A DNA stretch of 46,652 nt from Maricaulis sp. GTDB taxonomy: Bacteria > Pseudomonadota > Alphaproteobacteria > Caulobacterales > Maricaulaceae. The notes under the pieces were generated by a model. That model did no database searches. It saw only the letters and a list, made by a program, of their open reading frames with translations, and was not told the DNA's origin. The position numbers and the translations under genes are program-made. Location of the stretch: NCBI RefSeq assembly GCF_030149425.1, contig NZ_JASBRQ010000086.1:1-46652 (forward strand). The letters run 5' to 3'. Below are positions 3,082-26,962 of this stretch, piece by piece (the stretch's first letter is position 1; each line of letters opens with the position of its first letter).

Positions 3082-3849
3082 AAATTTCTCCAGGCCTGTC
3101 CGTCCCGGCGGGTGCTGCTGCAGACCGGCTTGCTGGTGCTGGCCCTGAGCCTGATCCAGACCGCGTCCGGCGGATTTGACAGTGACGACGTCTCCTTTGC
3201 CCACCGGCTGGTCCTGTGGACAGTGGTTGTCTGCCTGGTCGCCGGACAATTCCTCGCCATTATGGTTCTCGTCCGCTTGAGCGGTCTGGCTCAGGCGGGG
3301 CGTCGCTGGCCGGCCTGGCTGATCGCCTTCGCCGGCGTCTGGCCCCTGGTGACGCTGCAGGTTGAAGCCCTCAAGCGCACCCCGCTCTTGTCCTACCAGG
3401 CGCCGGACCCGTTGCTGGACTTCGCGCTCTTCATGGCCCCGGGTATCGCCTTTATCTGCGGTCTGATCGTGTTGATCGAGATCCAGGCCGAGCGGCAGCG
3501 TCGGCGTGAAGACGAGCAAGCCAGCTGGGTGCCGGCCCCCCTCGAGGATGCCGATCCCGGTGAGGGGTGGCCCGCCGGGACCATTCTGTCGATCGAGACC
3601 CAGGATCATTATCTCAGCCTGACCAGCGATCACGGCCAGCATCTCGTCCGCGCCACGATGAGCGAGGCGATCGCCCGCACACGACCGGGCAGCGGGATGC
3701 GTGTTCACCGTTCCTGGTGGGTAGCGCGTGAGGCCGTCGCCCGCACGGAACGCCGCGGCCGCGATCATGTGCTGATCCTGGTCGACGACCGCGTTGTCCC
3801 TATCGCCCGTGGCCGGGTCGACCAGCTCAAACAGGCTGGATGGCTCTAG
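3064..3849 (+). CDS. Membrane LytTR-family DNA-binding regulator
   Basis: A 261-residue protein with an N-terminal membrane module of four predicted helices (about 17-36, 46-75, 83-95 and 118-142). A charged linker follows, then a C-terminal LytTR DNA-binding domain from about residue 165: 'ILSIETQDHYLSL', 'HLVRATMSEAI' and 'RVHRSWWVAREAV'. There is no response-regulator receiver domain. This is a common alphaproteobacterial architecture in which the membrane part is thought to sense a signal or partner directly. The start is GTG at 3064; ATG at 3076 is an equally possible start and would leave the TGTCG repeats upstream. It is divergent from the serine hydrolase gene. Its stop lies about 115 bp from the left end of the island. 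Confidence 0.8.
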   Translation: MKRLMSKFLQACPSRRVLLQTGLLVLALSLIQTASGGFDSDDVSFAHRLVLWTVVVCLVAGQFLAIMVLVRLSGLAQAGRRWPAWLIAFAGVWPLVTLQVEALKRTPLLSYQAPDPLLDFALFMAPGIAFICGLIVLIEIQAERQRRREDEQASWVPAPLEDADPGEGWPAGTILSIETQDHYLSLTSDHGQHLVRATMSEAIARTRPGSGMRVHRSWWVAREAVARTERRGRDHVLILVDDRVVPIARGRVDQLKQAGWL

Positions 3850-3962
3850 CGGCTTTGGCCGTAGACGCTCACGCCGCAGCCCTGAGCACGCTTGATGTGA
3901 GCACGAACCCCCACGCCAGCGTCTGGCCTGGCAACGGGTTCGAGCGGAGCGGAAGCAAAGAA

Positions 3963-3973
3963 AAATGGTGCCG
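3963..3973 (+). other. attL core, outer copy
   Basis: AAATGGTGCCG is identical to 26884-26894 at the tRNA end. On the minus strand it reads CGGCACCATTT, a tRNA 3' terminus with CCA and three following bases. The chromosomal sequence to its left would have been immediately downstream of tRNA-Thr before insertion. Confidence 0.65.
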
Positions 3974-4086
3974 GTCGATGGACCAAGCTCGAACACCACA
4001 GCCTTGAGCGCGCTTCATGCGAGCACGAACCCCAACGCCTATGGCCAGGCCGGGCACGGGTTCGAGCGGAGCGGAAGCAAGGAAAG

Positions 4087-4095
4087 AATGGTGCC
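4087..4095 (+). other. Second attL-like core, inner copy
   Basis: AATGGTGCC recurs inside the tandem duplication, 123 bp from the outer copy, again preceded by the GAGCGGAGCGGAAGC-type flank. It may be the true attL, with the outer copy a scar, or a remnant of a serial insertion. The 123-bp spacing is 41 codons, so both copies lie in the same reading frame. Confidence 0.5.
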
Positions 4096-4204
4096 CGTCG
4101 ACAGACTCGACTGGAACCAGTTCTTTGAGCTTCTAGAGGAATGGAACCGCGATCTTGAGGCGCTCGGCGCACCTGAGCTTGGCGGCCCGGAGAACGGGCC
4201 ATGA
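4088..4204 (+). CDS. Small ORF at attL, possible recombinase tail in the circular form
   Basis: An open frame of 38 codons (MVPVDRLDWNQ...) with an AAGGA-like site just upstream. Its stop overlaps the mobC start (ATGA). The frame is also open upstream to 3965. It begins with the same Met-Val-Pro triplet, in the same phase, as the residues before the end of the serine recombinase (...EEMVPLA) at attR. I read it mainly as the C-terminal extension the recombinase would gain in the excised circle. It may also be translated alone as an acidic, Trp/Phe-rich helical peptide coupled to mobC. I recognise no family. Confidence 0.45.
   Translation: MVPVDRLDWNQFFELLEEWNRDLEALGAPELGGPENGP
4184..4200 (+). 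promoter_or_regulatory. Hairpin abutting the mobC start
   Basis: Six-base arms GGCCCG (4184-4189) and CGGGCC (4195-4200) around a 5-base loop end at the base before the mobC ATG. A stem here could occlude initiation unless ribosomes arrive from the overlapping upstream frame, which fits translational coupling. Confidence 0.4.
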
Positions 4205-4608
4205 GCATCAATGAAAACCGGAGCTCCGCTTCTGTATTCAATCGTGCTGCCAAGAAGAAAGCCTCCTCCCCGTTCTCGCTTCGGCTGAGTGAAGACGAAC
4301 GAGCCCTGCTCCGCCAGCGAGCCGGGAAACGATCACTTGGTGACTATATTCGTAGCTGCCTTTTCGGCGATGCAGCGAAACCGTCCAAGCGGCGAACGCC
4401 GCGCGATCGCGATATTGAATACGCCAAAGCGCTCGCCGGGCTCGGTCGTTCTGAACTCGCCACCAATATGGCCACCATTGCGAACGCAGCGGCGGTCGGT
4501 GCGCTACCGGTTACGCCTGATCTGACCGAGGCGCTCAATGCCGCCTGTCGAGACATTCGAGACATGCGCGATGCGCTCATCAAGTCGCTTGGGGTGAAGG
4601 CCAAATGA
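4201..4608 (+). CDS. mobC: MobC-like relaxosome accessory protein
   Basis: A 135-residue basic protein. It has a ribbon-helix-helix-like N-terminal part ('PFSLRLSEDERALLRQRAG', then 'SLGDYIRSCLFG') and a C-terminal helical segment with 'GRSELATNMATIANAA', both typical of the MobC/plasmid mobilization family. Such proteins bind oriT and help the relaxase open the strand. Its stop overlaps the relaxase start by four bases (ATGA) and its own start overlaps the upstream small frame in the same way. It is therefore part of a coupled unit. oriT is probably close, either in 4096-4200 or downstream of the relaxase. Confidence 0.8.
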   Translation: MSINENRSSASVFNRAAKKKASSPFSLRLSEDERALLRQRAGKRSLGDYIRSCLFGDAAKPSKRRTPRDRDIEYAKALAGLGRSELATNMATIANAAAVGALPVTPDLTEALNAACRDIRDMRDALIKSLGVKAK

Positions 4609-5918
4609 TCTTGGTGGGCAATCAGCGCGGCGGCGCGCGCGACCTCGCCTTGCACTTGATGAAGGACGAAAACGAACACGTCGATATCCATGAGATGCGG
4701 GGTTTCATCAGTGACGACCTCGAAGGCGCGTTCACGGAGGCCTACGCCACCAGCCAGGCGACACGCTGCAGGCAATTCCTCTTTTCGCTCAGCCTCAACC
4801 CACCGCAGACAGAGACAGTCGAAACCGAAACCTTCAAGGACGCCATCAATCGGGTTGAAGCGGAACTCGGCCTGAATGGTCAGCCGCGCGCGATCGTCTT
4901 TCACGAGAAGGAAGGCCGCCGCCATGCCCATGCGGTATGGAGTCGGATCAAAGCCGACGAGATGAAAGCGGTTCAGCTCTCCCACACCAAGACCAAGCTC
5001 ATGGAGATCAGCCGGGAGATTTATCGCGAACACGGTTGGCGCATGCCTGACGGGATGACAGACCGCTCTAAGCGCGATCCGAAGAACTTCTCGCTGGAAG
5101 AATGGCAACAAGCCAAACGGACCGGCAAAGACATCAAAGCCATTAAGGCCGCGCTGCAAGATGCCTGGGCGATCTCGGACTCGAAGGTAGCCTTGGAGCA
5201 CGCCCTAGCCGAACGCGGCTATATGCTCGCACGAGGTGACCGGCGCGGATATCTCGTCGTCGATCATCGCGGCGAGCCCTATGCGCTCAACACCTATGCC
5301 GGGGTAAAAACAAAAGAGGTCCGCGCCCGCATCGGCGATGCGGATCAACTCCCGACGCTTGAGGAAGCCAACGCGCGTATCGCTCAAGGCATGATCCCGG
5401 CAATGGACCGGATGAAAGCTGACATCGCGGAACAGGAGCGAGAGCACCGCGAAGAACAAGCTCGCAAGCGATCCGAACTCGTCGAGCGCCAGCGTGCTCA
5501 AAGACAAGAACAGCAGGACCGCATGCGCGCCCGGCAAGAAGCCGAGGCCGTCAAACGGCAAGAGCGGTTTCGCTCCGGCTTCTCGGGTGTTTGGGATCGG
5601 CTATCCGGTGAGCACAAGCGTATCCAGGAGCGCAATCAGTTTGAGGCGTGGCAGGCCGAAAAGCGGGACCAGGCGCTGCGGGATCAGCTTATCTTCCGTC
5701 ATCTCGAAGAACGCCGCCGCATAGATTCCGAACGGGCCCGCGTCCAAGTTCAAGAAGTCCAAAGGCTGCGCTCCATCGAAGCGGATAGGCAGCGATTTGA
5801 GAATACGGTTGCCAGCGAGCGCGAAGCGCGACGGCAAGCCTTCATCAAGCAACGTCGCCAGCAAGAGCAATCGCAGGCTCAGACACGAAACCGCGGCAGC
5901 CCAGACCTCAGCCGATAG
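4605..5918 (+). CDS. Relaxase / mobilization nuclease
   Basis: A 437-residue protein. The N-terminal relaxase domain has the three-histidine metal motif H100...H108-A-H110 ('HEKEGRRHAHAVW'). A long, highly charged Arg/Glu/Gln coiled-coil C-terminus runs from about residue 275 to the end. Relaxases nick oriT and stay covalently bound to the transferred strand. The N-terminus ('MILVGNQRGGARDLALHLM') lacks an obvious canonical motif I 'Y(L/I)' tyrosine. A Tyr at about 47 ('EAYATS') is the best nearby candidate, so the nucleophile is uncertain. The pair with MobC and the distant coupling protein defines a mobilizable, not self-transmissible, module. No symbol is assigned because the MOB class is not certain. 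Confidence 0.8.
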   Translation: MILVGNQRGGARDLALHLMKDENEHVDIHEMRGFISDDLEGAFTEAYATSQATRCRQFLFSLSLNPPQTETVETETFKDAINRVEAELGLNGQPRAIVFHEKEGRRHAHAVWSRIKADEMKAVQLSHTKTKLMEISREIYREHGWRMPDGMTDRSKRDPKNFSLEEWQQAKRTGKDIKAIKAALQDAWAISDSKVALEHALAERGYMLARGDRRGYLVVDHRGEPYALNTYAGVKTKEVRARIGDADQLPTLEEANARIAQGMIPAMDRMKADIAEQEREHREEQARKRSELVERQRAQRQEQQDRMRARQEAEAVKRQERFRSGFSGVWDRLSGEHKRIQERNQFEAWQAEKRDQALRDQLIFRHLEERRRIDSERARVQVQEVQRLRSIEADRQRFENTVASEREARRQAFIKQRRQQEQSQAQTRNRGSPDLSR

Positions 5919-6075: not shown

Positions 6076-8082
6076 TTACGAGGAGAACTTCAAACCAGCC
6101 GCATCAAGAAACGCCAAGTTTCGTAGGCGCGCATCTGCCAGCAGATCAGCCCATTCAATGATTTCGATTACGCCTCTGAATTTTCCGTCAAGCTGATTTA
6201 TGCGGCCTCGCCCATTCGACGTCGTTCGCCAAGTGCTCGTGTGAATATCAAGCTTACCGACGATATCAGCCACGACGTAACAGTAGAAAATGCAATCATC
6301 CGCGACGCGGATTCGCTGCCCTCGAAAATCCTCTATCTCGTTGTTCTTCAATTTGGTGATGTATTCCGCGATCTGATTGGAGGGTGAGTATCGGTCTGTA
6401 TAATCTGTGCGACCAGGTTTCTTAAATTCGACCAGCATTACACGACGGAGAGGGTCTTCACCCTCCGCGCCCAATCCGTGAAGCCGGTCATAGATCAGGA
6501 GGTCCGCGCGCTCGCGCCCAGAGCTCTCTTTGACCAGCTGGCTAAAAGACAAATCTGAGGAGAAGTACTTTGTGAAGGTGAAGCGCTCATCGATGATCCA
6601 AAGGTCGTGATCGGATTGTTCTACCTTGTTCGGATCGTCTCCTCTTATGCGCATCGGGCAGATGAATTTGTGGAGCGTTTCCTCTAGATGGAAATCGGTT
6701 TCCTTGTCTCCCCGGTCCCTAATACGACGAATAAGAACTTGCATTACGTCGAGAACGATTTTTCGTCTCAACACATATTCTGTTAGCTGCCGTTGTTCCT
6801 CCGCGCGGACTTCATTTGCCGCAGATTGGATTGTTTCAGCGAAATTTTCTGGAACCTCTTCGCCAGCTTCTAGCTGCGATACGATGGATTGGATTTTTTC
6901 GTTGCGCTCTTTGTCACGTCTAATCCTTATGGGGATAAGCGCCTGGGCATACTGCTCATCTTTAACAGCGTTTTTCGGTACGCGTTTTAGAAGTGCCTCC
7001 GGCTCCTCGAAGCCGAAAGATGGATAATCCCCGATAAATCCCCGCAGTCCTCCAAGCCGCTCAGTATCAAAGCGTTGGATCTCGTCGTGTATCGCATTCT
7101 TGCGAGCATGTTCAGCACAGACCTTCACGATCTGATCGACAATGCTCTCGTCAAAATTGAACTGAGTTCGCTCTTGATTGACACGCTCGTCTAAGAAGTT
7201 GCCCGATATGCAGCCGTGAAACACACGGTCGCCAGCGGGGCCAAACCGTCCGATGCCTAATAGACCGTCGATCTTGCGTGTCGTGACGGTCCGACCATTT
7301 GCAACAAGATGTAGCTGGTGCAGGCCATCAAAGTTCGCACTCGCCTGTTTGAGGCAAACGAAACTCGCGAGCTCAAGCTCTCCAAACTCTTCGGTTTCGA
7401 GTTTCGCGATGCCTCTGTCTTCCACCTGTAGTTTCTTGATTTCCTCCGGGAACTCAGCGCTTTCACCGCTCACATCAACCACGATCTGCGGCGACCGGCC
7501 AAGAATAAAGTCTGCGAAAAAATGCGAGCCAAAATGCTTGACGATCGTCGCACGCTGGATTGGGAATTTTCCTCTGTAGGCGCTACCCCGGAGCCCAGAG
7601 AACCTCACGATCGTTCCCCGCTCTTGTGGACCTCCCGCGATTTCGGTCAGAGCCTCATCGTAAATCTGATCGGTTTCACGCAAACCAAAATTGAATTCGC
7701 GTCTGTAGAGTTTGTCACCGTCAATAAACTGGCTGGACACAGAAATATTTTCGAAGGCATCAAGCCATAACAGGCGACCCACGCCCTTGCCGCCTCTAAG
7801 CAACTTGAATGGCGTGTCAGTCTTGCAGAATGCTTCGAACCGCTCGTGATCAAGGCCTATCCCGTTATCAGAAACAGTGATGGAAACGCGATCTGGGTCA
7901 TTTAGGTTTTCGAACTCAACAATGACTTTTCCATCGTCCTGAGCGCAGCTTCCAAAGGCATCTTCGATAGCGTGAAGTGCATTGCTAACAGCCTCAAATA
8001 CCGGCTGTAATGCCTCTGCAGCCTGAGAGGGCTTCGGGAAGCGCTTTACGCGATTTACTATGTCTCCCTGAAGCGACGTCAT
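6076..8082 (-). CDS. GHKL (MORC-like) ATPase with C-terminal PD-(D/E)XK nuclease motif
   Basis: A 668-residue protein. The N-terminal GHKL ATPase fold shows E30/N34 in 'FEAVSNALHAI', the D72-x-G-x-G motif 'SDNGIGLD' and the glycine lid 'GGKGVG' (97-102). It most resembles the MutL/MORC-type GHKL ATPases known from restriction-modification neighbourhoods. A coiled middle follows. Around 525-560 lies 'ADLLIYD' (D527) then 'VMLVEFKKPG' (E552, K554), the layout of a PD-(D/E)XK endonuclease core. I infer an ATP-gated clamp carrying its own nuclease. It is the last gene of the five-gene unit and its start overlaps the upstream stop by four bases (ATGA). The nuclease assignment rests on motif spacing only. 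Confidence 0.75.
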   Translation of the reverse strand: MTSLQGDIVNRVKRFPKPSQAAEALQPVFEAVSNALHAIEDAFGSCAQDDGKVIVEFENLNDPDRVSITVSDNGIGLDHERFEAFCKTDTPFKLLRGGKGVGRLLWLDAFENISVSSQFIDGDKLYRREFNFGLRETDQIYDEALTEIAGGPQERGTIVRFSGLRGSAYRGKFPIQRATIVKHFGSHFFADFILGRSPQIVVDVSGESAEFPEEIKKLQVEDRGIAKLETEEFGELELASFVCLKQASANFDGLHQLHLVANGRTVTTRKIDGLLGIGRFGPAGDRVFHGCISGNFLDERVNQERTQFNFDESIVDQIVKVCAEHARKNAIHDEIQRFDTERLGGLRGFIGDYPSFGFEEPEALLKRVPKNAVKDEQYAQALIPIRIRRDKERNEKIQSIVSQLEAGEEVPENFAETIQSAANEVRAEEQRQLTEYVLRRKIVLDVMQVLIRRIRDRGDKETDFHLEETLHKFICPMRIRGDDPNKVEQSDHDLWIIDERFTFTKYFSSDLSFSQLVKESSGRERADLLIYDRLHGLGAEGEDPLRRVMLVEFKKPGRTDYTDRYSPSNQIAEYITKLKNNEIEDFRGQRIRVADDCIFYCYVVADIVGKLDIHTSTWRTTSNGRGRINQLDGKFRGVIEIIEWADLLADARLRNLAFLDAAGLKFSS

Positions 8083-9293
8083 TTATCAGCCCTCTTCTCA
8101 AGTTGTGCATCTGAAGGCGCGTAAACGTAATCGCCAATTGTCCCATCTCTAAATTTTTCGATCGCTTCATCGATCACGAAGAGCGGGACCAGGAACCATT
8201 CGCGTGGTTCGACCGGGTTTCCGAAGCGGTCCTTGATGTCAATCTTCAGACGCGCGGGCTCGAAGACACGGTGCATCAGGCGCTCAAATTTCTTGCGATT
8301 GATGTTGAACAGCTCATAGGTCGCGACGACTTCAACATCAGCCAAGAGATAGGTCGCATCCTTAGCGGCATTCGCGATGCGCTTCTCGACGCTGCCGCCC
8401 GTCACGCCGATCTTGTGGAGCACCTCGCGGTTTTCCGACACGGTTGGGTGATTGGACTTGCTTCGAAGGACGTAGATGGTCCCGCTCGCGAGATCCTCTT
8501 CCTCTTGAGAATCTCCGAACAGCGGGCCCGCCGTTGGCTCGGTAATGCGCCGGCTGGTCTCATCCTTGTAGATAGCGCGCTGTAGAGAGCGGAGAAGCAA
8601 GTTACTCTCGGTACCATTGGAGAAGATCACCCGAAGCCGAGCATCCTTCTCGCCATTGGGCGCTTTGATCGCCTCCCCAACCTCGGCCACATAGAGTGTC
8701 TGGCCATTGAGGATGAAGAATTCACCCTCGCGGATATCCGTCTTCAAGAAGCCTGCTTCCTTGCGGATCGTCCGGCTCTGTCGGACACCATCTTTCAGCT
8801 CAGCCTGGACCTGTTCAAACAGTGGTTTGAATGTCTCGAAATCTTCGCAGCGCTGTCGGTTCGCGATCTCCTCGGCCGCGCGTTTTTCGGCGCCTGATCG
8901 CACGTGCTTCAGCTCGGTGATGTCTGCTAGTTCCGCCTCGATGCCAAGCTGCTCCAGGAGCGCGTCGTCGTCGATGTCCTCTTCGATGGTTCCGACCGGC
9001 GTCTGAGCGTCACCGAGAAGGCCTTGGTGGTCGAGGGGCTCCAGAAGCGTGCGGCATTCGTCAAGTTGGCGCAGCCGGTCTAGGCGAACGGCATACATGC
9101 GCTCAAAAATATCATTGCCTTCGCCATGCTGTGGCGTGCGGCCATGCTGATCATAGAAACGCTGGATATCTTCAAATCCTGCGATGATTCGCTCTTCTCG
9201 CGGCGTCAGGCTCTTTTGCTTTTTCGCTTCAACCTCAACGCCGAGTTCGCCGAGCAGTGCATCGTCTTCATCTGTGAACGCGTATTTAGCCAT
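8079..9293 (-). CDS. GIY-YIG (T5orf172-like) nuclease-domain protein
   Basis: A 404-residue protein. The C-terminal part (about 271-382) matches the GIY-YIG family of the T5orf172 type: 'GTIYVLRS' for the GIY strand, 'HKIGVTGGSVEKRI' for the YIG strand and its conserved Arg (R305), H341 in 'LMHRVF', and E365 in 'PREWFLV'. The N-terminal half carries two similar acidic segments, 'DDALLGELGVEVE' (about 11-23) and 'DDALLEQLGIEAE' (about 109-121), each followed by a helical stretch, suggesting an internal duplication. It sits between the helicase (8-base overlap) and the GHKL ATPase (4-base overlap). It probably cuts or senses DNA for the operon; whether it is catalytic is not shown. Confidence 0.75.
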   Translation of the reverse strand: MAKYAFTDEDDALLGELGVEVEAKKQKSLTPREERIIAGFEDIQRFYDQHGRTPQHGEGNDIFERMYAVRLDRLRQLDECRTLLEPLDHQGLLGDAQTPVGTIEEDIDDDALLEQLGIEAELADITELKHVRSGAEKRAAEEIANRQRCEDFETFKPLFEQVQAELKDGVRQSRTIRKEAGFLKTDIREGEFFILNGQTLYVAEVGEAIKAPNGEKDARLRVIFSNGTESNLLLRSLQRAIYKDETSRRITEPTAGPLFGDSQEEEDLASGTIYVLRSKSNHPTVSENREVLHKIGVTGGSVEKRIANAAKDATYLLADVEVVATYELFNINRKKFERLMHRVFEPARLKIDIKDRFGNPVEPREWFLVPLFVIDEAIEKFRDGTIGDYVYAPSDAQLEKRADK

Positions 9294-11346
9294 TCGCGGC
9301 CTCCGCCTTCATCTTTGCGAGATAGGCCACGCCTTCAGCCATGCGCTTTTCCCAGGCATCGGCTGCCGTGATGGACGGCAAGCGCCCGCGCTCTTGCTTG
9401 AATTTCAAGGCGCGCTTCGCAAGCTCACGGGCTTCGTCTGGCGACATGCTCACGCGTTTGCCCGCGATCACAGACGCGACCTGCTTCAGGCTGTCCTCGC
9501 TCATGGTCTTGGCCAGGATCGCGTAAGCCTCGCCGAACGGATTGATCCGGTCGATCAGGTCGATATCGAGTTCGCGTACATCCATCGCAAACTTTCGAAC
9601 CCCATCGATCAGAGCTGTGTTGCCGGCCTGCTCGATATCAGGATCGTCACCCGCAGCAATGGCTTTGGCCTTCTGAGTCAGATTTAGCGCCGCGATAGCA
9701 TGCTGGCGCACGGCCTCTTGGTCCGCCTCGTCAAGCTCCGGATAGCGGTCCTTGATGATCTTGCCCATGCGAACCTGCGTCAGCTCTTCAGACACCAGTT
9801 CCTCATTGAAGAGGCCTTGTTCGATGGAGGTTTTGTCCTGGGCGAAGGCCGTGATGACCTCGTTCAGGTCTTCTTTACAGATGCGCTCGGCCTCTTTGGT
9901 CTTCGGCTCGGAAAGGCCTTTGATCTCAATCTGAAACTCGCCTTGTTCCTCGTTGAAGCCGACATTGCATTTCTCAGGATCGTAGCCGCCTTCGCCATAG
10001 TCGAAGCCTTCAACCGGGCCGCTCTGGGTGTTCTTGGGCGTGAAATTGAAACGCGGCGCGAGAACCTGCTCCATCAGCAGGCTGGCGGCGATGGCTTTGA
10101 GCGTATCGTTCACCGCATCCACGACGCTGTCTTCCGAGGCGTCCGGTTCCGCGAGCAAATTGGTGAAGCGAGCGCGGGTCTTGCCCTCTGCGTCGCGCGT
10201 CGCGCGCCCGATGATCTGGACGATCTCGGTCAGGCTGGAGCGATAGCCCACCGTCAGGGCGTGCTCACACCATATCCAGTCAAAACCTTCCTTCGCCATC
10301 CCAAGCGCGATGATGATGTCTACGTGGTCGCGGTTGTTCTTCTGCTTGGGGTCTTTGAGCGCGGCTGAAACGCGATCCCGCTTTGCCGGATCATCATTCA
10401 CGAGGTCAGCGATGCGCAGCACCCGGCCTTTGGACGTGCGCACAAGCTGGAACCCGGTCTCAGGATCGGTGCCTTCCCAATCGCCCAGCTCATCCAGGAT
10501 GTGCTCGACTTCCTTGATCTTGTCCTTGGTGCTCTCGCGGGAGTTAACGCTCGGAATATGGACGATCGTCTTTTGCGAAGGATCGAGCACGCTCAGTATT
10601 TCATCGGCGTATGAGCCGGAATAGAAATAATACCCAATATCAAGCGTCTTCAGCCACTTATAGCCATTGAGCTGCTCGTAATACGTATAAGTGACTGTTT
10701 CGAACTTCGCCTCATCATGCGGCATCAAAACCGGCTCGGCATCGCCCCGGAAATAGGAGCCGGTCATGGCGACGACATGCACCTTGTCGCGGGCGATCAG
10801 CTCAGCGAGCTGTGCGCCCAGCTTGTTGTCCGGATTGGCGGAGACGTGGTGAAATTCGTCCACGGCGATGAGGCAGTCATCGAACGCCTCGATCCCGAAC
10901 TTCTCAACCGCATTGCGAAAAGTCGCATGTGGGCAAACAAGCGCCTGATCATCGCTATCCAGAAAGGCCTTTACAGAGGCCGCCTTGCTGCCTTCTTCAC
11001 CGGGCGCGTTACAGAGGTTCCATTTCGGCTCGACATGCCAATCGTAATAGAACCCGAACCTGGTCAACGGCTCATCAGCAAAGCTCGATCCGATCGACTT
11101 CTCCGGCACGGTGATGATGGCTTTGCGGACACCCTGATTGTGGAGCTTGTCGAGCGCAATGAACATCAGCGCTCTGCTCTTACCCGACGCTGGAGGCGAT
11201 TTAATCAGCAGATATTGCTCGCCACGTTTTTCATAGGCGCGCTCCTGCATCGGGCGCATGCCAAGCTCATTGGACTTGGTGGCGTTGCCAGTCTGGGCAT
11301 AAGAGACGGAGACTGACGGGACAGACTTATTGTTTTTATTGGTCAT
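9286..11346 (-). CDS. DEAD/DEAH-box superfamily 2 helicase of a restriction/defence operon
   Basis: A 686-residue SF2 helicase. Walker A is 'SPPASGKSRA' (50-59). The DEAH-type box is 'VDEFHH' (162-167), so it reads DEFH, not DEAH. Motif III is 'MTGSYF', and motif VI is 'IGRATRDAEGK'. It resembles the res-type helicases of type I/III restriction and related phage-defence loci. Those translocate DNA or remodel it for a methylase/nuclease partner. The C-terminal ~250 residues are helical and unassigned. The start overlaps the upstream membrane-protein gene by 11 bases and the end overlaps the GIY-YIG gene by 8, so synthesis should be tightly coupled. Confidence 0.8.
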   Translation of the reverse strand: MTNKNNKSVPSVSVSYAQTGNATKSNELGMRPMQERAYEKRGEQYLLIKSPPASGKSRALMFIALDKLHNQGVRKAIITVPEKSIGSSFADEPLTRFGFYYDWHVEPKWNLCNAPGEEGSKAASVKAFLDSDDQALVCPHATFRNAVEKFGIEAFDDCLIAVDEFHHVSANPDNKLGAQLAELIARDKVHVVAMTGSYFRGDAEPVLMPHDEAKFETVTYTYYEQLNGYKWLKTLDIGYYFYSGSYADEILSVLDPSQKTIVHIPSVNSRESTKDKIKEVEHILDELGDWEGTDPETGFQLVRTSKGRVLRIADLVNDDPAKRDRVSAALKDPKQKNNRDHVDIIIALGMAKEGFDWIWCEHALTVGYRSSLTEIVQIIGRATRDAEGKTRARFTNLLAEPDASEDSVVDAVNDTLKAIAASLLMEQVLAPRFNFTPKNTQSGPVEGFDYGEGGYDPEKCNVGFNEEQGEFQIEIKGLSEPKTKEAERICKEDLNEVITAFAQDKTSIEQGLFNEELVSEELTQVRMGKIIKDRYPELDEADQEAVRQHAIAALNLTQKAKAIAAGDDPDIEQAGNTALIDGVRKFAMDVRELDIDLIDRINPFGEAYAILAKTMSEDSLKQVASVIAGKRVSMSPDEARELAKRALKFKQERGRLPSITAADAWEKRMAEGVAYLAKMKAEAANG

Positions 11347-11914
11347 TGCCGCTCCTTTGTAATTTTTTTGATAGCAATTTTTCCCGGTCGTCAGAGATTA
11401 GAAGCATTCCGACAAGGCTTCCCCGCTTGAGACCTGAGTCATTGTGTCCCAGATCACGTCGGATCGCGCGCAACAGGTCATCCACCACCAGTAGCGACTC
11501 AGAGGGATCGTCTTGTCCGGCCAGGTCCGCGCTTGTAATCTCGTACAGAGACAGGGCGTTGATTACAGCTCCGTCCCCCCAAACCATCAGCTCCCTCTTA
11601 AAATCGAAGAGGCGGCTCATCATCTCGGATTCTGGGACTTCACCTTCGCCCTTAACCGACTTGAATAAATCGAATATCAGATCGACCAGCCGCATGTAGG
11701 CATTCTTCTTTTCTATGAAATGTCGTGAGTTTATCTCGCGGCGGCGACTTGAATAATGACTCCATATACCGCCAACCATAACGGCGATCGCACCGATTAC
11801 CGCCGCTGTGATTCCTGGGTCTGCTTTCAACAAGCTATCGACAAAAAGCCACCCGCCAGCTGAAATCGCAGCAAGAAACAGGATGCCAAGAACGATCGAA
11901 ATCGCTGTTTTCAT
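11336..11914 (-). CDS. Two-TM membrane protein embedded in the defence operon
   Basis: A 192-residue protein with two N-terminal transmembrane helices (about 5-28 and 34-53). A basic stop-transfer 'SRRREINSRHF' follows, then a cytoplasmic helical domain of about 130 residues. I recognise no family. It overlaps the methylase stop by four bases (ATGA) and the helicase start by 11 bases, so it belongs to the operon and is not a chance neighbour. A membrane anchor is unusual among restriction components. It could localise the complex at the envelope, sense infection at the membrane, or act as an abortive effector. These are inferences. Confidence 0.7.
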   Translation of the reverse strand: MKTAISIVLGILFLAAISAGGWLFVDSLLKADPGITAAVIGAIAVMVGGIWSHYSSRRREINSRHFIEKKNAYMRLVDLIFDLFKSVKGEGEVPESEMMSRLFDFKRELMVWGDGAVINALSLYEITSADLAGQDDPSESLLVVDDLLRAIRRDLGHNDSGLKRGSLVGMLLISDDREKLLSKKLQRSGNDQ

Positions 11915-14643
11915 GCCGCCCCCTTCGCCTGGGTCATCTTGGTGTAAAGCTCAAAAAGCTTTTCCAGGCGCTCGGTGTCGTTTTTGAAGCGTCGCCCGAT
12001 AAAGATGCGCTCCATCACTTCATCGTTACGATCGTGCGCTGCGCGGAGATCAGCAGGCATTTTCTCCGGATCGTATAGATCGGTGATAGTAGCTGGAAAA
12101 TGCGCCTCACGCGCCAGGAGAATGTCCTCAGCGCAGCGCGTCAGGTCTTCTTTGTTTTTCTGAGTCAGCACTGGAAGCGGGAACGTATTCCAACCAAGTG
12201 TATTGGAGTAGGAGTAATCCGTCCTTAGTCGGCCACAAATGGTGTCAATCCAAGATAAGTGGATCTTCGACAATATAACCGCGAGCGCCCAGAGAGGGCC
12301 ATTCGGAATGAAAAAGGCTTTATTGGTCGGTATGACTGTTTCGTCAGCAAGGCCCGCTGGAAAATATTCCCTGTTTTCAGACGAAACGATGGGGACAAAT
12401 ATCTTAGATGCATCATCCCCTTTTCGCTCGCGAAATTGATGGGGCCTGGCGGCAAGCTTATTCACAGCTTTATCATCAGTGACGCTTCTATCCTCGCGAA
12501 CACTTTCTATGCGCTCTCGAACATCTGTATAAATCAACGCTTCATCATATTGCTCATCAGAAATCCATAAACAGTATCTCTCTCTCCCGTTGATGAATTC
12601 TGATGAACCAAGAAATCTACGAACAAAGCGATCAGGAAGCCCGCATTCCTGTAATGCGATTTTTGCGGAGGAATCTAGAATTAGACCTGCTGACTTCGAG
12701 TAATACACTCCATAATCCATCGGCACATTTGAGAACAATGGCTTTCTGCTTGCGGGCACGACGGAGATTTTATGCTCAGTAAGATACGGGTTTATGTTCT
12801 GAACCTCTCGCCTGCTCTCGCCCGAGAAAATCCATCTTGGGCCGCCAGGCTCACGATCTACACCTGTGATTACAACCGTGACCCCTGCCTTGTTTGCGGC
12901 AAGATTCGACCACTTAAAGGAAGTGTGAGCAAAGCGGACTCGCAACCCGCGCTCCAGCAACAACGCCCAGGTGATAGGAACTTGCTGCCCTTGGCATATA
13001 CTGTTTGTCGCAACAAACGAAAAAGGCGCATGGCAAACATCATTGTAGATCGCAGCCTTCATCAACCACGCGCCAACATAGTCGACGTTTTTCCATTTCG
13101 AGGTCAGGCGCCCAAAAACCTGCTCGAGGTCTTCTTTTTCGTGCAATGCCTGTTTTCGAGTGCCCTTGAATGGCGGATTGCCACAGATGTACGTTTCGCC
13201 GCCTTCGTTCTCGAAGTCGATTTCAGACTGATCGATCGGCGATTGGAACAAATCATCGGCATGATGCTTCACACCAATGCCGGTTGGCGGGCAGATGCTG
13301 AGCCAGTCTAGGCGGAGCGCATTTCCACAAGTGATCCAGTTCATCGCGTTCAGCGGAAGGACATCCTTCAGCGCTTCGAGCTGGCCACGATAGAGCACGT
13401 CACACTGATATTCGGCGATGATGAGCGCGAGGCGCGCGATCTCTGCCGGGAAGTCGCGAAGCTCAATCCCGCGAAAATTCGTGAGCGGAATCTCTGAACG
13501 AAGATCCTTCTCGCCCCTGCGCTCATTGATCTCCGCCTCGATCTTGCGCATTTCCTTGTAGGCGATGACCAGGAAATTGCCGGAACCGCAGGCCGGATCG
13601 AAGACCCGGATTTTAGCTATGCGATTACGCAGATTGAGGAGCTTGCGGCCATTATCGCCTGCCTCCTCAAGCTGCTCGCGCAGGCCATCCAAGAAGAGCG
13701 GGTTGAGAACCTTCAGAATATTGCTGACGCTGGTGTAGTGCATACCAAGCGCGCCGCGCTCTTCCTCATCCGCAACGGCCTGGATCATAGATCCGAAAAT
13801 GTCCGGATTGACCTTCCTCCAATCGAGTTTGCCAATATGGAGGAGATAGCTACGCGCCATTTTGGTGAAGGTCGGCACCTCAACGGAGTCCGCGAACAGA
13901 CCGCCGTTCACGTAGGGGAATTTGTTTGCCCAGCTGCGCAACCCTGCTGCCTCGCGATCCTCATGCTTGGTGTTCATTGCGCGGAACAGCTCGCTGATCA
14001 CCTCATGGGTGTTCGTGCTGTCGCGGTCGCTCATCAGCTCGATCGTAGAGGTGAAGAGGTCGCCGCCGGTGAATATCTCGGTGTCCTCGGCGAAGAAGCA
14101 GAAAATGAGCCGCGCCATGAAGTGGTTCATGTCGTGGCGTCGCTCCGCGGTGCCCCATTCAGGATTGGTGCGCAAAAGCTCGATATAGAGTTTGTTCAGC
14201 CGCCCGGTCGCCTTGATGTCGAAGGCGCTCTCGCGGATTTGCTGAACCGTGCTGATTCCGGCGAGCGGCAAGAAGAAGCCGAAATGGTCATGGAAGTCGG
14301 GGTAGTTGCACGCTACCGTCTCGCCGGAATTGAGGTCTTCGGCCTCTAGCCACTCACCATCGGTGGCGAGCACGAACTTGGCGCGCGCTTTCTTGGTAGC
14401 CGGGCTGTCCTTCAGCGCGACAAGCGTGTCAGTGACCGTGCCCGGCTCACATACCTTGATATGGATGTTGCTGGTTTGAAGCACGCCACCCAGGTCGGAC
14501 TTGTTCGACGCGCCGGTGCGTAGCCGCTTGATCGTCGTCGCCTTGTTCCCGAACGCCTCCAGAAAGGCATAGGGAAACTCCTGGGCGTCAAACGGCTGCT
14601 CAGCGAGGTTCGATACGGCTTCTTCAATCTCAACAGCGTTCAA
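11911..14643 (-). CDS. MmeI-like class I SAM DNA adenine methylase lacking a visible nuclease motif
   Basis: A 910-residue protein built like the MmeI/type IIG family: an N-terminal domain, a helical spacer (about 130-340), a methylase core and a target-recognition C-terminus. The SAM motif I is 'DPACGSGNFL' (349-358) and the catalytic motif IV is 'NPPF' (489-492), which means N6-adenine methylation. In MmeI the N-terminus is a D-ExK nuclease. Here the equivalent region (about 20-110, 'SNIHIKVCEPG', 'FVLATDGEWLEAEDL') shows no such motif. Cleavage would then depend on partner proteins. It is the first gene of the unit, started at the ATG ending at 14643. Upstream lies 221 bp with no gene, so the promoter should be there. 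Confidence 0.8.
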   Translation of the reverse strand: MNAVEIEEAVSNLAEQPFDAQEFPYAFLEAFGNKATTIKRLRTGASNKSDLGGVLQTSNIHIKVCEPGTVTDTLVALKDSPATKKARAKFVLATDGEWLEAEDLNSGETVACNYPDFHDHFGFFLPLAGISTVQQIRESAFDIKATGRLNKLYIELLRTNPEWGTAERRHDMNHFMARLIFCFFAEDTEIFTGGDLFTSTIELMSDRDSTNTHEVISELFRAMNTKHEDREAAGLRSWANKFPYVNGGLFADSVEVPTFTKMARSYLLHIGKLDWRKVNPDIFGSMIQAVADEEERGALGMHYTSVSNILKVLNPLFLDGLREQLEEAGDNGRKLLNLRNRIAKIRVFDPACGSGNFLVIAYKEMRKIEAEINERRGEKDLRSEIPLTNFRGIELRDFPAEIARLALIIAEYQCDVLYRGQLEALKDVLPLNAMNWITCGNALRLDWLSICPPTGIGVKHHADDLFQSPIDQSEIDFENEGGETYICGNPPFKGTRKQALHEKEDLEQVFGRLTSKWKNVDYVGAWLMKAAIYNDVCHAPFSFVATNSICQGQQVPITWALLLERGLRVRFAHTSFKWSNLAANKAGVTVVITGVDREPGGPRWIFSGESRREVQNINPYLTEHKISVVPASRKPLFSNVPMDYGVYYSKSAGLILDSSAKIALQECGLPDRFVRRFLGSSEFINGRERYCLWISDEQYDEALIYTDVRERIESVREDRSVTDDKAVNKLAARPHQFRERKGDDASKIFVPIVSSENREYFPAGLADETVIPTNKAFFIPNGPLWALAVILSKIHLSWIDTICGRLRTDYSYSNTLGWNTFPLPVLTQKNKEDLTRCAEDILLAREAHFPATITDLYDPEKMPADLRAAHDRNDEVMERIFIGRRFKNDTERLEKLFELYTKMTQAKGAA

Positions 14644-20900: not shown

Positions 20901-20924
20901 GAACAGTTTGTATGAATCTGTTTT
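20901..20924 (+). repeat. Inverted 25-bp site, left copy
   Basis: Contains TGTATGAATCTGTTT (20909-20923). The reverse complement occurs in the copy at 21033-21057; about 20 of 25 positions agree. Each copy is itself an imperfect palindrome (AACAG...CTGTT). It lies in AT-rich DNA between the exported-protein gene and the tyrosine recombinase. Confidence 0.65.
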
Positions 20925-21032
20925 ATTATTTGACGGCGCTGCGTTTTGTTTTAGCGTATCGATGCTGGCAAGCGGCTATCAGCGCGCCCAACGGCCCGAT
21001 AAGCGGCGTGAATTCAGGGAGTGTGACCCCGT

Positions 21033-21057
21033 GAAACAGATTCATACATTCTGTTTC
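21033..21057 (-). repeat. Inverted 25-bp site, right copy
   Basis: GAAACAG, then ATTCATACATT, then CTGTTTC: perfect 7-bp arms, forming the inverse of the copy at 20901-20924. It ends 31 bases before the tyrosine recombinase start, so binding here could repress or position that gene's product. Confidence 0.65.
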
Positions 21058-21926: not shown

Positions 21927-22211
21927 ATGTCTTTTCAATCAAAACCGCAGGGCCCAGCGTTCGTTGAACGTCTGCAAGTTGGCTTGTCGGCTCTGACCTC
22001 AATCGTCGGTGCCTTCATCGTGACGCCTTTCGTCGTCGCTTTCATCGTTCCGTATGCAGTGGCCTTCGCCGATCAGCATTATGGGCTGGGTTTCCTCATG
22101 CCCTTGTTGGTTTGGTTGCTCAGCTTTGCGCTGGTCGCGCTGGGCATCGCCCTGTTCCTCAAAATCGTTTTTACGCGCGAGACGCTCCGTTTCGTCTTGC
22201 CGACCCGCTGA
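21927..22211 (+). CDS. Small two-TM membrane protein next to the coupling protein
   Basis: A 94-residue protein with two hydrophobic helices (about 22-50 and 60-83) split by a short 'ADQHYGLG' turn, and with short polar ends. It has no recognised domain. Its position before the VirD4-like coupling-protein gene suggests a membrane partner for transfer or a small entry-exclusion-type protein. I start it at the ATG at 21927; a TTG ten codons earlier is in frame but less likely. Confidence 0.6.
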   Translation: MSFQSKPQGPAFVERLQVGLSALTSIVGAFIVTPFVVAFIVPYAVAFADQHYGLGFLMPLLVWLLSFALVALGIALFLKIVFTRETLRFVLPTR

Positions 22212-22232
22212 TACAACAAAGGAGGTGTCATC

Positions 22233-22382
22233 ATGTTCACCAAAGAAAAACGCGTCGGAACCCGTACCGATATCCGTCAACGCCCGATTACTGCGGAAGT
22301 GACGGATTGGGGAGAAGTCTTCGGCTTCATTTTTTGGGTGTTTCTCGTCCTAGCGGTCATCAAAGGATGCACCGGCGGCTAA
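22233..22382 (+). CDS. 49-residue single-TM protein
   Basis: A very small protein, 'MFTKEKRVGTRTDIRQRP...' then one TM helix 'FGFIFWVFLVLAVIKGCTGG'. It has an ideal AAAGGAGGT site seven bases before the ATG, the best ribosome-binding site in this part of the island. It follows the two-TM gene by 21 bases and is followed by a strong terminator. It has a basic cytoplasmic N-terminus and a C-terminal membrane anchor with a Cys. No family recognised. Confidence 0.65.
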   Translation: MFTKEKRVGTRTDIRQRPITAEVTDWGEVFGFIFWVFLVLAVIKGCTGG

Positions 22383-22402
22383 ACGCCTTCCAGTCAGTCG
22401 AG

Positions 22403-22432
22403 AAAGGGCGCGCTCACAGCGCGCCCTTTTTT
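22403..22432 (+). terminator. Rho-independent terminator upstream of the coupling-protein gene
   Basis: Ten-base perfect arms AGGGCGCGCT (22405-22414) and AGCGCGCCCT (22418-22427), extended by AA/TT, then a T-run. It ends the small membrane-protein transcript and may attenuate read-through into the coupling-protein gene that starts 28 bases later. Confidence 0.85.
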
Positions 22433-22459
22433 GTTTTCACCATCACTGAAAGGGGAAAG

Positions 22460-24061
22460 ATGAGCTTCAATTTTGACCCAGAACAACATCGCTTCGGCTC
22501 GGCGCGATTTGCCAGCGAAGAGGAGATTGCCCGCGCTGGGCTGTTCGATCTGTCGCCGGGCGCACTTTATGTCGGGCATATCGGAGGACGGTCCCTCATG
22601 CCCAATCTGAGCGGGGGTTATCTGACAGTAGCCGCGCCGAGGTCAGGCAAGCTTGCGACAGTTTTAGCCTATTCCTCATGTCTGGATGGGTTCTCCGACA
22701 CAGCAATTTATCTCGATCCCAAAGGCGAGATTGGCTCAATCAGCTTTACCCTCAAGCCAAGCTATTACTGGAATCCGGCCCGCATTCCTGGGCTGCCCTA
22801 TCACCGGATCAATCCGGTTGGTCATCTCCACATAGACAATCCAAACCTTCATGCCGCGGCCAAAGCGTTCGCGGACAACTTTGTCGAAAAAACCGGTGCC
22901 GCAGGATCTGTCTATTTTGAAGGTCGCGGCGAACAATTCTTAGAAGCCGTTGTGCTGACGCTTGCGCGCCTAGATGGGGTCGTCACGCTAAAGCGTCTGT
23001 TTGAAGTGCTGATGCTCATACCGGGCGGCGGCGATGGATGGCTCGAATTTGCGTTCGAGATGAGCGAGTCCGGCTTCACTATTTCCAAGACCGTGGAAGA
23101 GGAGATCGCTGCCGCTCGTGGCAATGACAGCGGCGGGTTTCGCGGCATTGTGGGAGAGTTGTTGCGCGCAGTAGCGCCGCTCTCTGATCCGGTTTTGTTG
23201 GAGTCTGTGTCTCCGCCCTTTGACATGTGCCTGTCGCAGCTGTGTGGACCGGAGGCTATCAATCTATTTTTGATGCCGCCTGGAAGTTGGATCGCAAAAT
23301 TAGGCGGCGTGCTGAAGAGCTTTTTTGTGGGCGTAAAGCACTACAAAGAAAGCGCTCCATCGGCTCCCCGTCAAACATGGTTTCTCGATGAAATTGGTCT
23401 GTTGGGCAATTTCCCGCTTGCCATGGAGCTCTTCACCATTGGCGCTGGGATGGGCTGTCGGCCTTGGGCGTTTTACCAGTCAACTGAGCAGATGAAGGCT
23501 ACCGCTCCCGGCGGAGATGTGATCATCCCCGCTAGCGCCGCGGTGCGTCAGTATTTTGCCGTTCGCGATGATGTTTCTGCGGCGCGGCTATCCAAGCAAC
23601 TTGGCATGCAGACGCTGGAATATGATGACAAAGCGGCGCAATTGCGGGCCCAATACGCGCGCGAGGAAGCGGCCCGTCATCTTATCGCCGGTGGTGATCC
23701 TGTCCAAGCTGCGCTCGCTCTATCGCATCATAGCGCGCTTGAAGCGAACCGAAGCCAGCAACAACGTGAATTGCGCACGATGGACGAGGTCATCTTCACC
23801 CTCAATGACCGGCAGTATCTGTTCATCGACGGTGTTCCGCACCCGGTCTATGCCGAGCGTGGGCCTTATTGGGAGAGTTATGCGATGCGGGGTCGCTTTC
23901 TTCCTAATCCCTATCACCCACCGACCGACAGCGTGCGCATTAAAACGCGCCTCGGCCATGCAAATCGGCGCGTGATCACCGAACGCGTGCCAGCGCAATT
24001 CGCCCACCTGCCTCAGTTTGCCGATGGATACTGGTCCTACATCGAAGGATTTCGTCCATGA
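22460..24061 (+). CDS. VirD4/TraG-type coupling protein
   Basis: A 533-residue ATPase of the TraG/VirD4 coupling-protein class. The Walker A-like loop is 'VAAPRSGKLATVL' (about 57-69). 'AIYLDPKGEIGSI' matches the conserved 'LDPKGE' after it. Walker B region: 'TWFLDEIGLLGNF'. A RecA-type C-terminal segment contains 'GCRPWAFYQS'. Coupling proteins carry relaxase-DNA to a type IV secretion channel. Strong N-terminal TM helices seen in canonical VirD4 are absent, so it may rely on the small membrane proteins just upstream for anchoring. The ATG at 22460 has a good GGGGAAAG site. The frame is open much further upstream but overlaps the 49-residue gene. The stop overlaps the next start (ATGA). Confidence 0.85.
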   Translation: MSFNFDPEQHRFGSARFASEEEIARAGLFDLSPGALYVGHIGGRSLMPNLSGGYLTVAAPRSGKLATVLAYSSCLDGFSDTAIYLDPKGEIGSISFTLKPSYYWNPARIPGLPYHRINPVGHLHIDNPNLHAAAKAFADNFVEKTGAAGSVYFEGRGEQFLEAVVLTLARLDGVVTLKRLFEVLMLIPGGGDGWLEFAFEMSESGFTISKTVEEEIAAARGNDSGGFRGIVGELLRAVAPLSDPVLLESVSPPFDMCLSQLCGPEAINLFLMPPGSWIAKLGGVLKSFFVGVKHYKESAPSAPRQTWFLDEIGLLGNFPLAMELFTIGAGMGCRPWAFYQSTEQMKATAPGGDVIIPASAAVRQYFAVRDDVSAARLSKQLGMQTLEYDDKAAQLRAQYAREEAARHLIAGGDPVQAALALSHHSALEANRSQQQRELRTMDEVIFTLNDRQYLFIDGVPHPVYAERGPYWESYAMRGRFLPNPYHPPTDSVRIKTRLGHANRRVITERVPAQFAHLPQFADGYWSYIEGFRP

Positions 24062-24982: not shown

Positions 24983-25330
24983 ATGGATAATCAATCTCCG
25001 ACCCCGCACGGAGCGGAATTGGATCATCGCTTGTCTGACATTCTGGCGTTGGCGCTCTCTAAGCCGACAGATCAGCCAGTCGGCTGCGATACGCATGCAT
25101 ATCTAGCTGAACTAGATGGTCTGGATGTCGATCCGGCCATCAAGATCGAATTCATCCACAGACTTTGGGTTCTGATCGAAACCGTTGTGAGGATTCAGTT
25201 TCGGCTTGATCCGGTGAGTGATGCTCTGAGGGCGCAAGATTTCGAGCGCGCATCTAACACCGCCTCTCTGATAAAATCAGACGGTCCTCTCAACGATATA
25301 TTTAACGCCGCAAACGGCGAAGGAAGGTGA
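24983..25330 (+). CDS. Small helical protein preceding the serine recombinase
   Basis: A 115-residue protein with a good AAGGAAGG site before the ATG, ending 4 bases before the recombinase TTG. It is helical: 'AYLAELDGLDVDPAIKIEFIHRLWVLIETVVRIQFRLDPV'. Its position and size fit a small accessory protein of the recombinase, possibly a directionality factor, though it lacks an evident HTH. No family recognised. Confidence 0.55.
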   Translation: MDNQSPTPHGAELDHRLSDILALALSKPTDQPVGCDTHAYLAELDGLDVDPAIKIEFIHRLWVLIETVVRIQFRLDPVSDALRAQDFERASNTASLIKSDGPLNDIFNAANGEGR

Positions 25331-25334
25331 TGTT

Positions 25335-26886
25335 TTGACCACGGAAGGAGACGCGCTCAATCTGCGCAAAGCGGTGATCTATGTTCGGATTTCCTCCAAG
25401 AAGCAGCTCGAAGGTGACGGCATTCGCTCGCAAGAAAGAACATGTCGTGATTTCGCGGCGTACAACGGACTAGAACCGGTACAGGTTTTTTCGGATGTAA
25501 TGTCTGGGCGCTTTGTGTCTCGTCCTGGCATGGACGCAATGCTCGATTATTTGCGCACGCATCGCGCCGAGAATTTGGTTGTCCTTATCGACGACGTCTC
25601 CCGGCTTTCGCGAAACTACTTAGGTCACATGCAGCTTCGCGACGAAATCAGGGCCGCCGGGGGCGAGCTATTGTCTCCAAACATGTCGTTTTCGGATGAT
25701 CCGTCGAAGCAGTTGCCAGAGAAGATCCAGGCGGTAGTGGTGGAACAAGCGCGGATCGAAAATGCGATGCGTTCAGCCTCCCGCCAGCGTGCCCGCGTAG
25801 CCAATGGGTATTGGACCTTTCATCCGGGCCCTGGCTATGAGTTCGCCAAAGACAAGGACAATGGCGGGAGCGTTCTCGTTAAGTCAGAACCTTCGGCTTC
25901 AGTGATTGCTGAGGCGTTGAACGGATACGCAAGCGGTCGGTTCCAAACTCAAGCAGAAGTAAAGCGGTTCTTGGACAATCACCCCGACTTTCCGAAGGGT
26001 AAGACCGGTTTCGTGCCGAAGCAGAACATACGGAAGCTTCTGACCAACATCCTTTATTCTGGCTACGTAGCGTACGAGCCATGGGGCATCCCTCCGCGAA
26101 AAGGTCACCATGAGGGGCTGATCACCTACGAGACCCATCTTCGCATCAAGGAGCGTCTCAACGGTCTGCCGAAATTCCCTATCCGTAAGTCCATCAACCC
26201 TGATTTTCCGCTACGAGGCTACGTTGACTGTGCGCATTGTGGCGTGCCGCTTAAAGGGTCCTGGTCCCGCAGCCGTAATGGCGTGCGTCACGGCTATTAC
26301 TCATGCCAGACGAAAGGATGCGTTGCATACGGAAAGTCAACACGGAAAGCGGTGATGGAGGAAGAGTTCGAGAAACTGCTCGGCTCAGTTCGTCCGAATG
26401 CTGTGCTGTTCAGCCTAGCGACGACAATGTTCGAAGCGGTCTGGGAGCGGCAGCACAATGACGTGGAGCTACGCGCCAGTTCGGTGCGGAAGGAACTGGG
26501 GGCCGTACAGAGCAAGATAGATGCTCTCGTCAGCCGCATTGCGACTGCCATGAACTCCAGCCTTATTCCGCTCTACGAAAAGGAACTGGTGACACTCAAT
26601 GAACAACGGTTGGCGTTGGACGAAAAACTATCCGAACTGACGGGTAGAAAGAGCGGTTCAAAACTCAGTTTTGAGGAGGCTTATAGAACCACCATGCGGT
26701 TCATCTCAAACCCTTTAAATCTATGGCGTTCCGAGCGTATCGAGTGCCGTCAAGCTGCGGTCAAATACACTTTTGTCCAGCATCTAAAATGGTGTCGAGA
26801 CTTCGGTTATAGAACCGCCAACTTATCGTTACCTTTCAAAGCGTTAAGCGCGTTTGAAGGTGCAAATTTTGGACAGTTTGAAGAAA

Positions 26887-26903
<17 letters not shown>
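25335..26903 (+). CDS. Large serine recombinase (element integrase)
   Basis: A 522-residue large serine recombinase. Resolvase domain: 'IYVRISSKKQ' with nucleophile S20 and 'DDVSRLSRN'. Recombinase domain: about 150-290. Zinc ribbon: 'YVDCAHCGVPLKG' and 'YYSCQTKGC'. A C-terminal coiled-coil segment follows (about 370-440). The start is TTG at 25335, five bases after the upstream stop, with a GGAAGG site. Its last codons run into the 3' end of tRNA-Thr, overlapping it by 17 bases. The position beside attR marks it as the integrase. In the excised circle its frame would not stop here but continue into the attL-side frame. Confidence 0.9.

Positions 26904-26962
<59 letters not shown>

Follow-up and report, generated by a model that had tools for sequence, protein, structure and literature searches.

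A bacterial serine recombinase gene predicted to span its own attachment site in an integrated mobilizable element of Maricaulis

In the archaeal suicidal integrases of the SSV1, pTN3 and pT26-2 kinds, attP lies within the integrase gene, which is split on integration; the part of the source covered here terms self-disrupting recombinases exclusively archaeal and tyrosine-type (PMC8371274). In mycobacteriophage BPs, attP falls in the reading frame of the gp33 repressor, and the free form is 33 residues longer, according to the sections covered (PMC4557955). For serine integrases, the covered part of another study reports that fusing an RDF to the enzyme determines reaction direction by way of intra-subunit contacts (PMC5737554). 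Streptococcal integrative mobilizable elements (IMEs) combine a serine recombinase with a relaxase in an integrated mobilizable element, and the passages covered describe serine-recombinase IMEs as integrating within genes, tRNA 3' ends being targets of tyrosine integrases (PMC5704250). Experimental activity is described for a plasmid whose attP lies at the int1 3' end and which uses a tRNA-Ser attB; this attP was picked among intergenic matches, and the text covered mentions no frame through attP (PMC3516476). Within open-licence PMC full text (subscription journals lie outside this scope), no description was found of a recombinase gene spanning its own att site in the manner set out below.

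We analysed 46,652 nucleotides of Maricaulis sp. (GCF_030149425.1, contig NZ_JASBRQ010000086.1, positions 1-46,652, forward strand), hereafter the window. The best overall explanation of this locus, to which we assign a probability of roughly 85% from sequence, is an integrated mobilizable element in which the serine recombinase gene extends across the element's own attachment site and has its tail swapped on integration.

The element and its attachment cores

The element (~22.8 kb, about 4089-26886, limits inferred) lies at the 3' end of its host target gene, a tRNA-Thr(CGT) found by ARAGORN at 26887-26962 on the minus strand. The integrated form of the large serine recombinase (522 aa; 25335-26903, plus strand) matches PF00239 (6.6e-21) and, under the gathering score, Zn_ribbon_recom (9.8e-05). 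Its sequence relatives in the PDB are A118 integrase and TnpX, the latter from Tn4451. At the left end are a mobC-like (NikA-like) gene (4201-4608, plus strand; PF21983, 5.7e-05, under the gathering score) and mobA, encoding a MobA/VirD2-like relaxase (4605-5918, plus strand; PF03432, 1.7e-16). A TraG/VirD4-like coupling protein is encoded at 22112-24061 (plus strand; PF02534, 2.3e-16), and no mating-pore gene was found among the element proteins scanned, a subset of the ORFs. With its own recombinase and relaxase and its chromosomal location, the element has the make-up of an integrative mobilizable element. To its left is host DNA, comprising a gene with a LytTR domain (3064-3849, plus strand; PF04397, 1.3e-11; homologue in G007) and, outside the element, a tandem repeat (3871-4085, plus strand) with copies at 3871-3963 and 3993-4085, spaced 122 bp.

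Three other features of the element were recorded. A small tyrosine recombinase (PF00589; 21089-21712) sits beside a 22-bp inverted repeat (20902-21055), and perhaps resolves circle dimers. The minus-strand cargo at 6076-14643 encodes a GHKL ATPase, a T5orf172 domain protein, a helicase and an MmeI-type restriction-methylation protein, and looks like a defence island. A 115-aa frame (24983-25330) ends just ahead of the recombinase start; no Pfam or NCBIfam model matches it, and its product is a candidate directionality factor or regulator.

The initial annotation had placed an att core inside the recombinase frame, coding Glu-Met-Val-Pro before Leu-Ala and a stop, and both coordinates and codons proved exact. 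AAATGGTGCCG lies at 26884-26894, where the frame reads GAA ATG GTG CCG (26883-26894); the gene as a whole ends GAA GAA ATG GTG CCG CTT GCG TGA. Recombinase codons up to 26885 are element DNA. The frame then enters the tRNA without a stop, so that MVPLA and the stop codon lie across the junction, in the tRNA-Thr end; since the bases from 26887 on are the opposite strand of tRNA-Thr(CGT), MVPLA is almost wholly antisense tRNA. The 3' CCA end of the tRNA (TGG on the plus strand) constitutes the attR core, TGGTGCC at 26887-26893, and analysis of both ends as a pair matches it to the same seven bases at 4089-4095.

Two copies of the core are present on the left: an outer one, with all 11 bases of AAATGGTGCCG again, at 3963-3973, and an inner one, AATGGTGCC, at 4087-4095. 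Both stay in the same phase until the TGA at 4202-4204, which overlaps the mobC ATG (4201) as ATGA, exactly as first described. From the inner copy, 35 residues follow MVP (a 38-residue tail), for a recombinase of 555 residues in all; from the outer copy it would be 76 residues after MVP (a 79-residue frame) and 596 in all. The C-terminal tail of the predicted circle, MVPVDRLDWNQFFELLEEWNRDLEALGAPELGGPENGP plus stop, occupies 4088-4204 on the plus strand and is kept in relatives. By itself AATGGTGCC is common, with 40 copies in the 3.3 Mb genome; what goes beyond chance is the phase agreement and the conservation in related elements, rather than the AATGGTGCC match alone.

Same-genus tRNA-Thr sites that lack the element (G018, G015, G001, G011 and G017) distinguish between the two left copies, as they carry the same downstream repeat flank. 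The outer core belongs to the host tandem repeat, and by eye an upstream repeat unit with a degenerate core occupies its place in G018, G015 and G017. In G018, window positions 3927-4095 align at 83% with L014 1342-1509, and the host match passes through the inner core and straight into the tRNA. Because this unoccupied homology continues to 4095 and then into the tRNA, we take the inner copy to be attL, the left end of the element. The outer core was ruled out as an attachment site, since its repeat is host DNA at element-free tRNA-Thr sites; with it falls the 596-residue form that had been proposed, and the 555-residue circle form stands at the length originally given. In G007, the nearest relative (88% on the right flank), ~920 bp of other DNA separate the LytTR gene from the tRNA, and an exact unoccupied copy of the site was therefore not found.

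The repeat spaced at 122 bp downstream of tRNA-Thr(CGT) is kept in several same-genus genomes (L014, L018, L005, L004, L006). Its units close with degenerate versions of the tRNA 3' end, and it is reminiscent of the repeats that follow E. coli tyrT. In G008, the copy of the G013 element shows two left cores separated by 120 bp (L085, about 1051 and 1171) with element-like sequence after both, maybe a scar of repeated insertion.

Reading frames at the two ends of related elements

Recombinase matches were found in 59 of 149 related genomes, in 67 of 398 genomes of the order (profile search) and in 24 of 385 genomes of the class, each count including the source genome. From the GTDB collection, 80 loci were kept of at least 494 recombinase relatives; those listed come from alpha-, beta- and gammaproteobacteria and from bins labelled Nitrospirales, Polarisedimenticolaceae and Bacteroidetes. 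Judged by these sequences, the arrangement occurs widely across Proteobacteria, and metagenome bins that bear the labels of other phyla contain related recombinases as well.

The right-end set of 170 loci, including the window, resolves into 120 unique loci with a whole tRNA, 25 without one and 25 duplicates. In all 120 unique tRNA loci, TGG stands in the same phase (NTG/G) at the recombinase C-terminus, and the last 40 recombinase codons are open. Ten tRNA types are targeted (Arg, Ser, Thr, Leu, Ala, Val, Met, Phe, Glu and Tyr), and the base preceding TGG is A in 102 of the 120. The linker is 11 codons long in 93 of 113 cases, and linkers of other lengths also keep the phase. Because these recombinases are kin to one another and so many have the 11-codon linker, the 120/120 count stands for far fewer independent events; the evidential weight of this sequence pattern rests on the other linker lengths and on a double phase shift described below. 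The antisense-tRNA extension of the integrated form, MVPLA in the window, ranges from 4 to 567 residues (118 of 120 loci; two run off the stretch). The 25 loci without a whole tRNA include some duplicates; three of them are natural fusions (see below), and many others enter partial tRNA-like sequence by eye; L184, L120/L162, L317 and L322 are also in this group. The second recombinase of G100 was considered as a tandem junction and rejected, as it enters a partial tRNA-Arg and then another island, with no tail.

Left ends were approached from the recombinase, by taking up to 60 kb upstream of 22 related genes, and from the relaxase. A short frame upstream of mobC, starting at the element's own tRNA core, recurs: the window has it, as do 13 of the 14 other elements that gave a MobC match, and in the fourteenth, G011, the tail was not found. 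Seven of the remaining eight upstream regions had no MobC match and were too short or were set aside, and G120 had a MobA match only. The G004 tail is 57% identical to that of the window (E 1.5e-07). MobA was found in 63 of 398 genomes, giving 88 upstream loci, of which 78 match a tail HMM built from 13 tails at any score (the weakest matches are few; lowest score 4.8) and 10 show no tail by the same measure.

At an HMM score of at least 15 there are 70 unique tails, 34-76 codons long from the core (median 39). The tail stop overlaps a start codon in 59 of the 70 (52 ATGA, 7 GTGA); we take the overlapped ATG or GTG as the mobC start, which is matched to MobC in the window and in G004. Conservation is internal to the tail, in a motif SN-x-LF-xx-L-x-W, and the termini are diverse, with 1/70 ending in AA, LA or VA. 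Pooled dN/dS is 0.35 (34 non-independent pairs) and differences by codon position number 276:215:420, third positions differing most, which argues that the frame is translated and constrained. An alignment with short tails mixed in (A2) apparently misplaced them, at 11-21% identity, and was excluded. The tail has no Pfam match and no homologue tying it to a function. A core was recognised in 66 unique tails, of which 49 have ATG and 12 have CTG as the core codon; because ATG is so frequent there, separate translation of the tail in the integrated state is possible.

Both ends were tried together in 38 elements, the left core being chosen as the best match to the element's own tRNA near the tail match, with phase ignored. 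Both ends proved to be in the same phase in 36 of the 38. Core matches averaged 7.08 bases, versus 4.38 in mismatched pairs, a fit equalled in none of 10,000 permutations; the putative short crossover cores of these 36 pairs are read from sequence. One further pair, G282a, is unscorable, its left end lying at a contig end. The other, G081:C12, is shifted alike at both ends (REKWC at attR, QKWCPG at attL), leaving the joined frame open. Its tail scores only 11.7 with the HMM, but the same ATGA comes next; the stretch taken yielded no whole tRNA. Counting this double shift, phase agreement extends to 37/37 scored pairs. That two sites almost 30 kb apart have shifted together would be difficult to account for if selection did not see the joined frame. 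An att site inside the recombinase frame with a state-dependent C-terminus, as the initial annotation had claimed, is thus upheld by the left-core frame kept in relatives, and the comparison it had proposed, of frame conservation at both ends of related elements, turned out in its favour, with a conserved tail and natural in-frame junctions.

Natural junctions and the predicted protein

Three natural in-frame fusions of recombinase and tail were found, all in damaged genes, and two of them continue into mobC. One, in the complete chromosome of G149, where two elements lie in tandem, runs recombinase-tail-mobC-mobA (L211): the first recombinase, frame-shifted upstream, gives KKKMVLPEGESLNTLFDELAAFEEQLKPYAYELEELGL and stops over mobC, mobA following. 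An unbroken recombinase copy lies 30 kb on, at tRNA-Thr. By its layout this tandem naturally records that a second element inserted at attR. In Oceaniradius stylonematis, one contig (L180) ends in recombinase-tail-mobC, with an early internal stop in the recombinase, and a remnant in G026 (L060/L353) retains the recombinase end plus tail. Since all three genes are damaged, the natural fusions demonstrate the joined frame rather than a working long protein. The full G149 region (G149:C1:1234771-1299500; L262, L354, L211, L355) has both tandem elements at a single tRNA-Thr; its inner recombinase is frame-shifted, its outer one unbroken.

In the source genome itself, the search gave a single match, with no second junction. 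A tblastn search of plasmids with the 555-aa protein, for a circle or plasmid form, returned 43 records, all below 60% identity. Among the matches listed (30 of 43), H28 alone passes residue 517 (to 525), and it enters tRNA-Thr, not the tail. The C-terminal half of L211 returned eight records; the four inspected, including H28, all lie at tRNA genes, and one is frame-shifted.

The L180 protein matches Zn_ribbon_recom above the cut-off and Recombinase below it. A model of the segment after its stop has a serine integrase body with long helices at 316-364 and 368-393, and Foldseek relates it to serine integrase complexes with low whole-chain TM-scores. A separate helix (473-497) is predicted over the tail motif, in a block with pLDDT of 52-64 and undefined docking. 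Taken together, the window and L180 provide the resolvase-type catalytic domain, zinc ribbon and long coiled coil of a large serine recombinase.

Proposed mechanism, alternatives and known systems

In the excised circle, the recombinase body would run through the core, (A)TGGTGCC, into the tail, a short linker followed by the predicted helix. Recombinase, mobC and mobA would there form one coupled unit, the tail stop lying over the mobC start. Crossover with the tRNA 3' end would swap the tail for antisense tRNA residues, strand the tail at the far left end and separate mobC-mobA from the recombinase promoter; the whole gene should thus exist in the circle alone. The anatomy, the phase at both ends, the conservation of the tail and the natural fusions can be read directly in the sequences; we infer that the circle forms and that both protein forms are made. 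Because the catalytic body survives, the integrated form probably still excises the element. Given the gene order and the stop-start overlap, mobC-mobA would be coupled in the circle to the message of the recombinase; their expression would be mainly from the circle. Such coupling had been proposed at the outset, and what is borne out is its layout, the stop overlapping ATG or GTG in 59/70 tails.

The tail is probably a state-dependent modulator of recombination. As the integrated C-terminus is arbitrary, anything needing a defined C-terminus must act in the circle. There the tail would serve as a state tag that promotes or allows attP x attB, or else holds it back until transfer has finished; by analogy with RDF fusion in engineered serine integrases, an influence on attP x attB is its most likely role. 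A fuller version is a self-switching integrase, in which crossover removes the conserved C-terminal helix, the circle form is integration-biased, the inserted form is excision-capable and the mobilization operon is turned off on insertion. This proposal is tentative, and we regard it as possible rather than probable.

Other readings give the tail a different job, or none. Readthrough of the att site might serve only the translation of mobC-mobA in the circle, the tail sequence mattering little. The stop-start overlap in 59/70 tails agrees with this, as does Tn916, whose transfer gene expression is circle-dependent; but it needs only an open frame, yet SN-x-LF-xx-L-x-W is kept at a dN/dS of about 0.35, and we consider it unlikely. 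Less likely still is a stability tag, by which the long form made from the circle would be broken down and the short form of the integrated copy would persist. Its geometry is that of phage BPs, whose longer free form is degraded according to the sections covered (PMC4557955). Diversity of the tail ends (1/70 AA, LA or VA) makes a degradation tag less likely, as conservation is internal, and the integrated form itself bears an uncontrolled extension of 4 to 567 residues.

The open frames would be mere by-products if DNA constraint on the attP arms shaped both ends. Serine integrase attP arms extend about 25 bp each side, the arms overlap both reading frames and linker length is mostly constant, as that reading requires; however, the tail extends 34-76 codons from the core and differs mostly at third positions (276:215:420), and phase is kept with other linker lengths, so that we give this explanation very little credence. 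Marginally less credible again is an independent small gene ahead of mobC whose phase match with the recombinase is accidental. An ATG at the core in 49/66 tails and the overlap of the tail end with a start codon are what such a gene would show, but 12/66 have CTG at the core, the one start position considered, the phases match the recombinase in 37/37 scored pairs, including the double shift, and natural fusions occur. We conclude that a recombinase gene crossing its own attachment site accounts best for these observations.

Separate directionality factors account for most of what is understood of direction control in serine integrases. In the present case, a large natural family seems to have the state signal built into the gene, with attP in the last codons, so that the protein differs before and after recombination. 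Were the self-switching proposal true, the state of the element would be recorded in the protein, and a separate directionality factor would be unneeded or simpler. Direction control becomes testable with two protein versions, and naturally tRNA-targeting serine recombinases are on offer as tools. Integrase genes of this kind annotated from integrated copies would carry the wrong C-terminus, tRNA antisense, and lack the true one, which lies roughly 3-40 kb off in the paired elements.

Among described systems, the archaeal integrases split by their own integration, absent from the initial annotation, are a closer precedent than the phage repressors it invoked. As in those integrases, attP is predicted, from both ends, to lie in the integrase gene of the window. 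However, theirs is a tyrosine recombinase (Phage_integr_3), whereas the window encodes a bacterial PF00239 serine recombinase; and in the archaeal case, as far as the covered part of the source describes it, an N-terminal piece is parted from the catalytic C-terminal piece and the enzyme is lost (PMC8371274), whereas here only a C-terminal tail would be. Its chemistry and the retention of its catalytic part place the window's recombinase outside the archaeal suicidal class. The repressor analogy is apt in that BPs also has a longer free form, as predicted in the window (555 vs 522 aa), though in some relatives the integrated form is the longer. It does not extend to the ends of the tails: the switched protein of BPs is a repressor whose long form has an ssrA-like tag in the sections covered (PMC4557955), whereas here it is the recombinase itself, without an ssrA-like end (1/70). 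Engineered integrase-RDF fusions are man-made and contain a whole RDF, whereas the tail in the window is natural, short and predicted to be removed by the reaction itself. In gene content the element resembles serine-recombinase IMEs of the Tn4451/TnpX and streptococcal types, having a serine recombinase and a relaxase, with TnpX as a sequence relative. Unlike those IMEs as described in the passages covered (PMC5704250), the present family targets the 3' ends of many tRNA genes, and the recombinase gene itself crosses the site.
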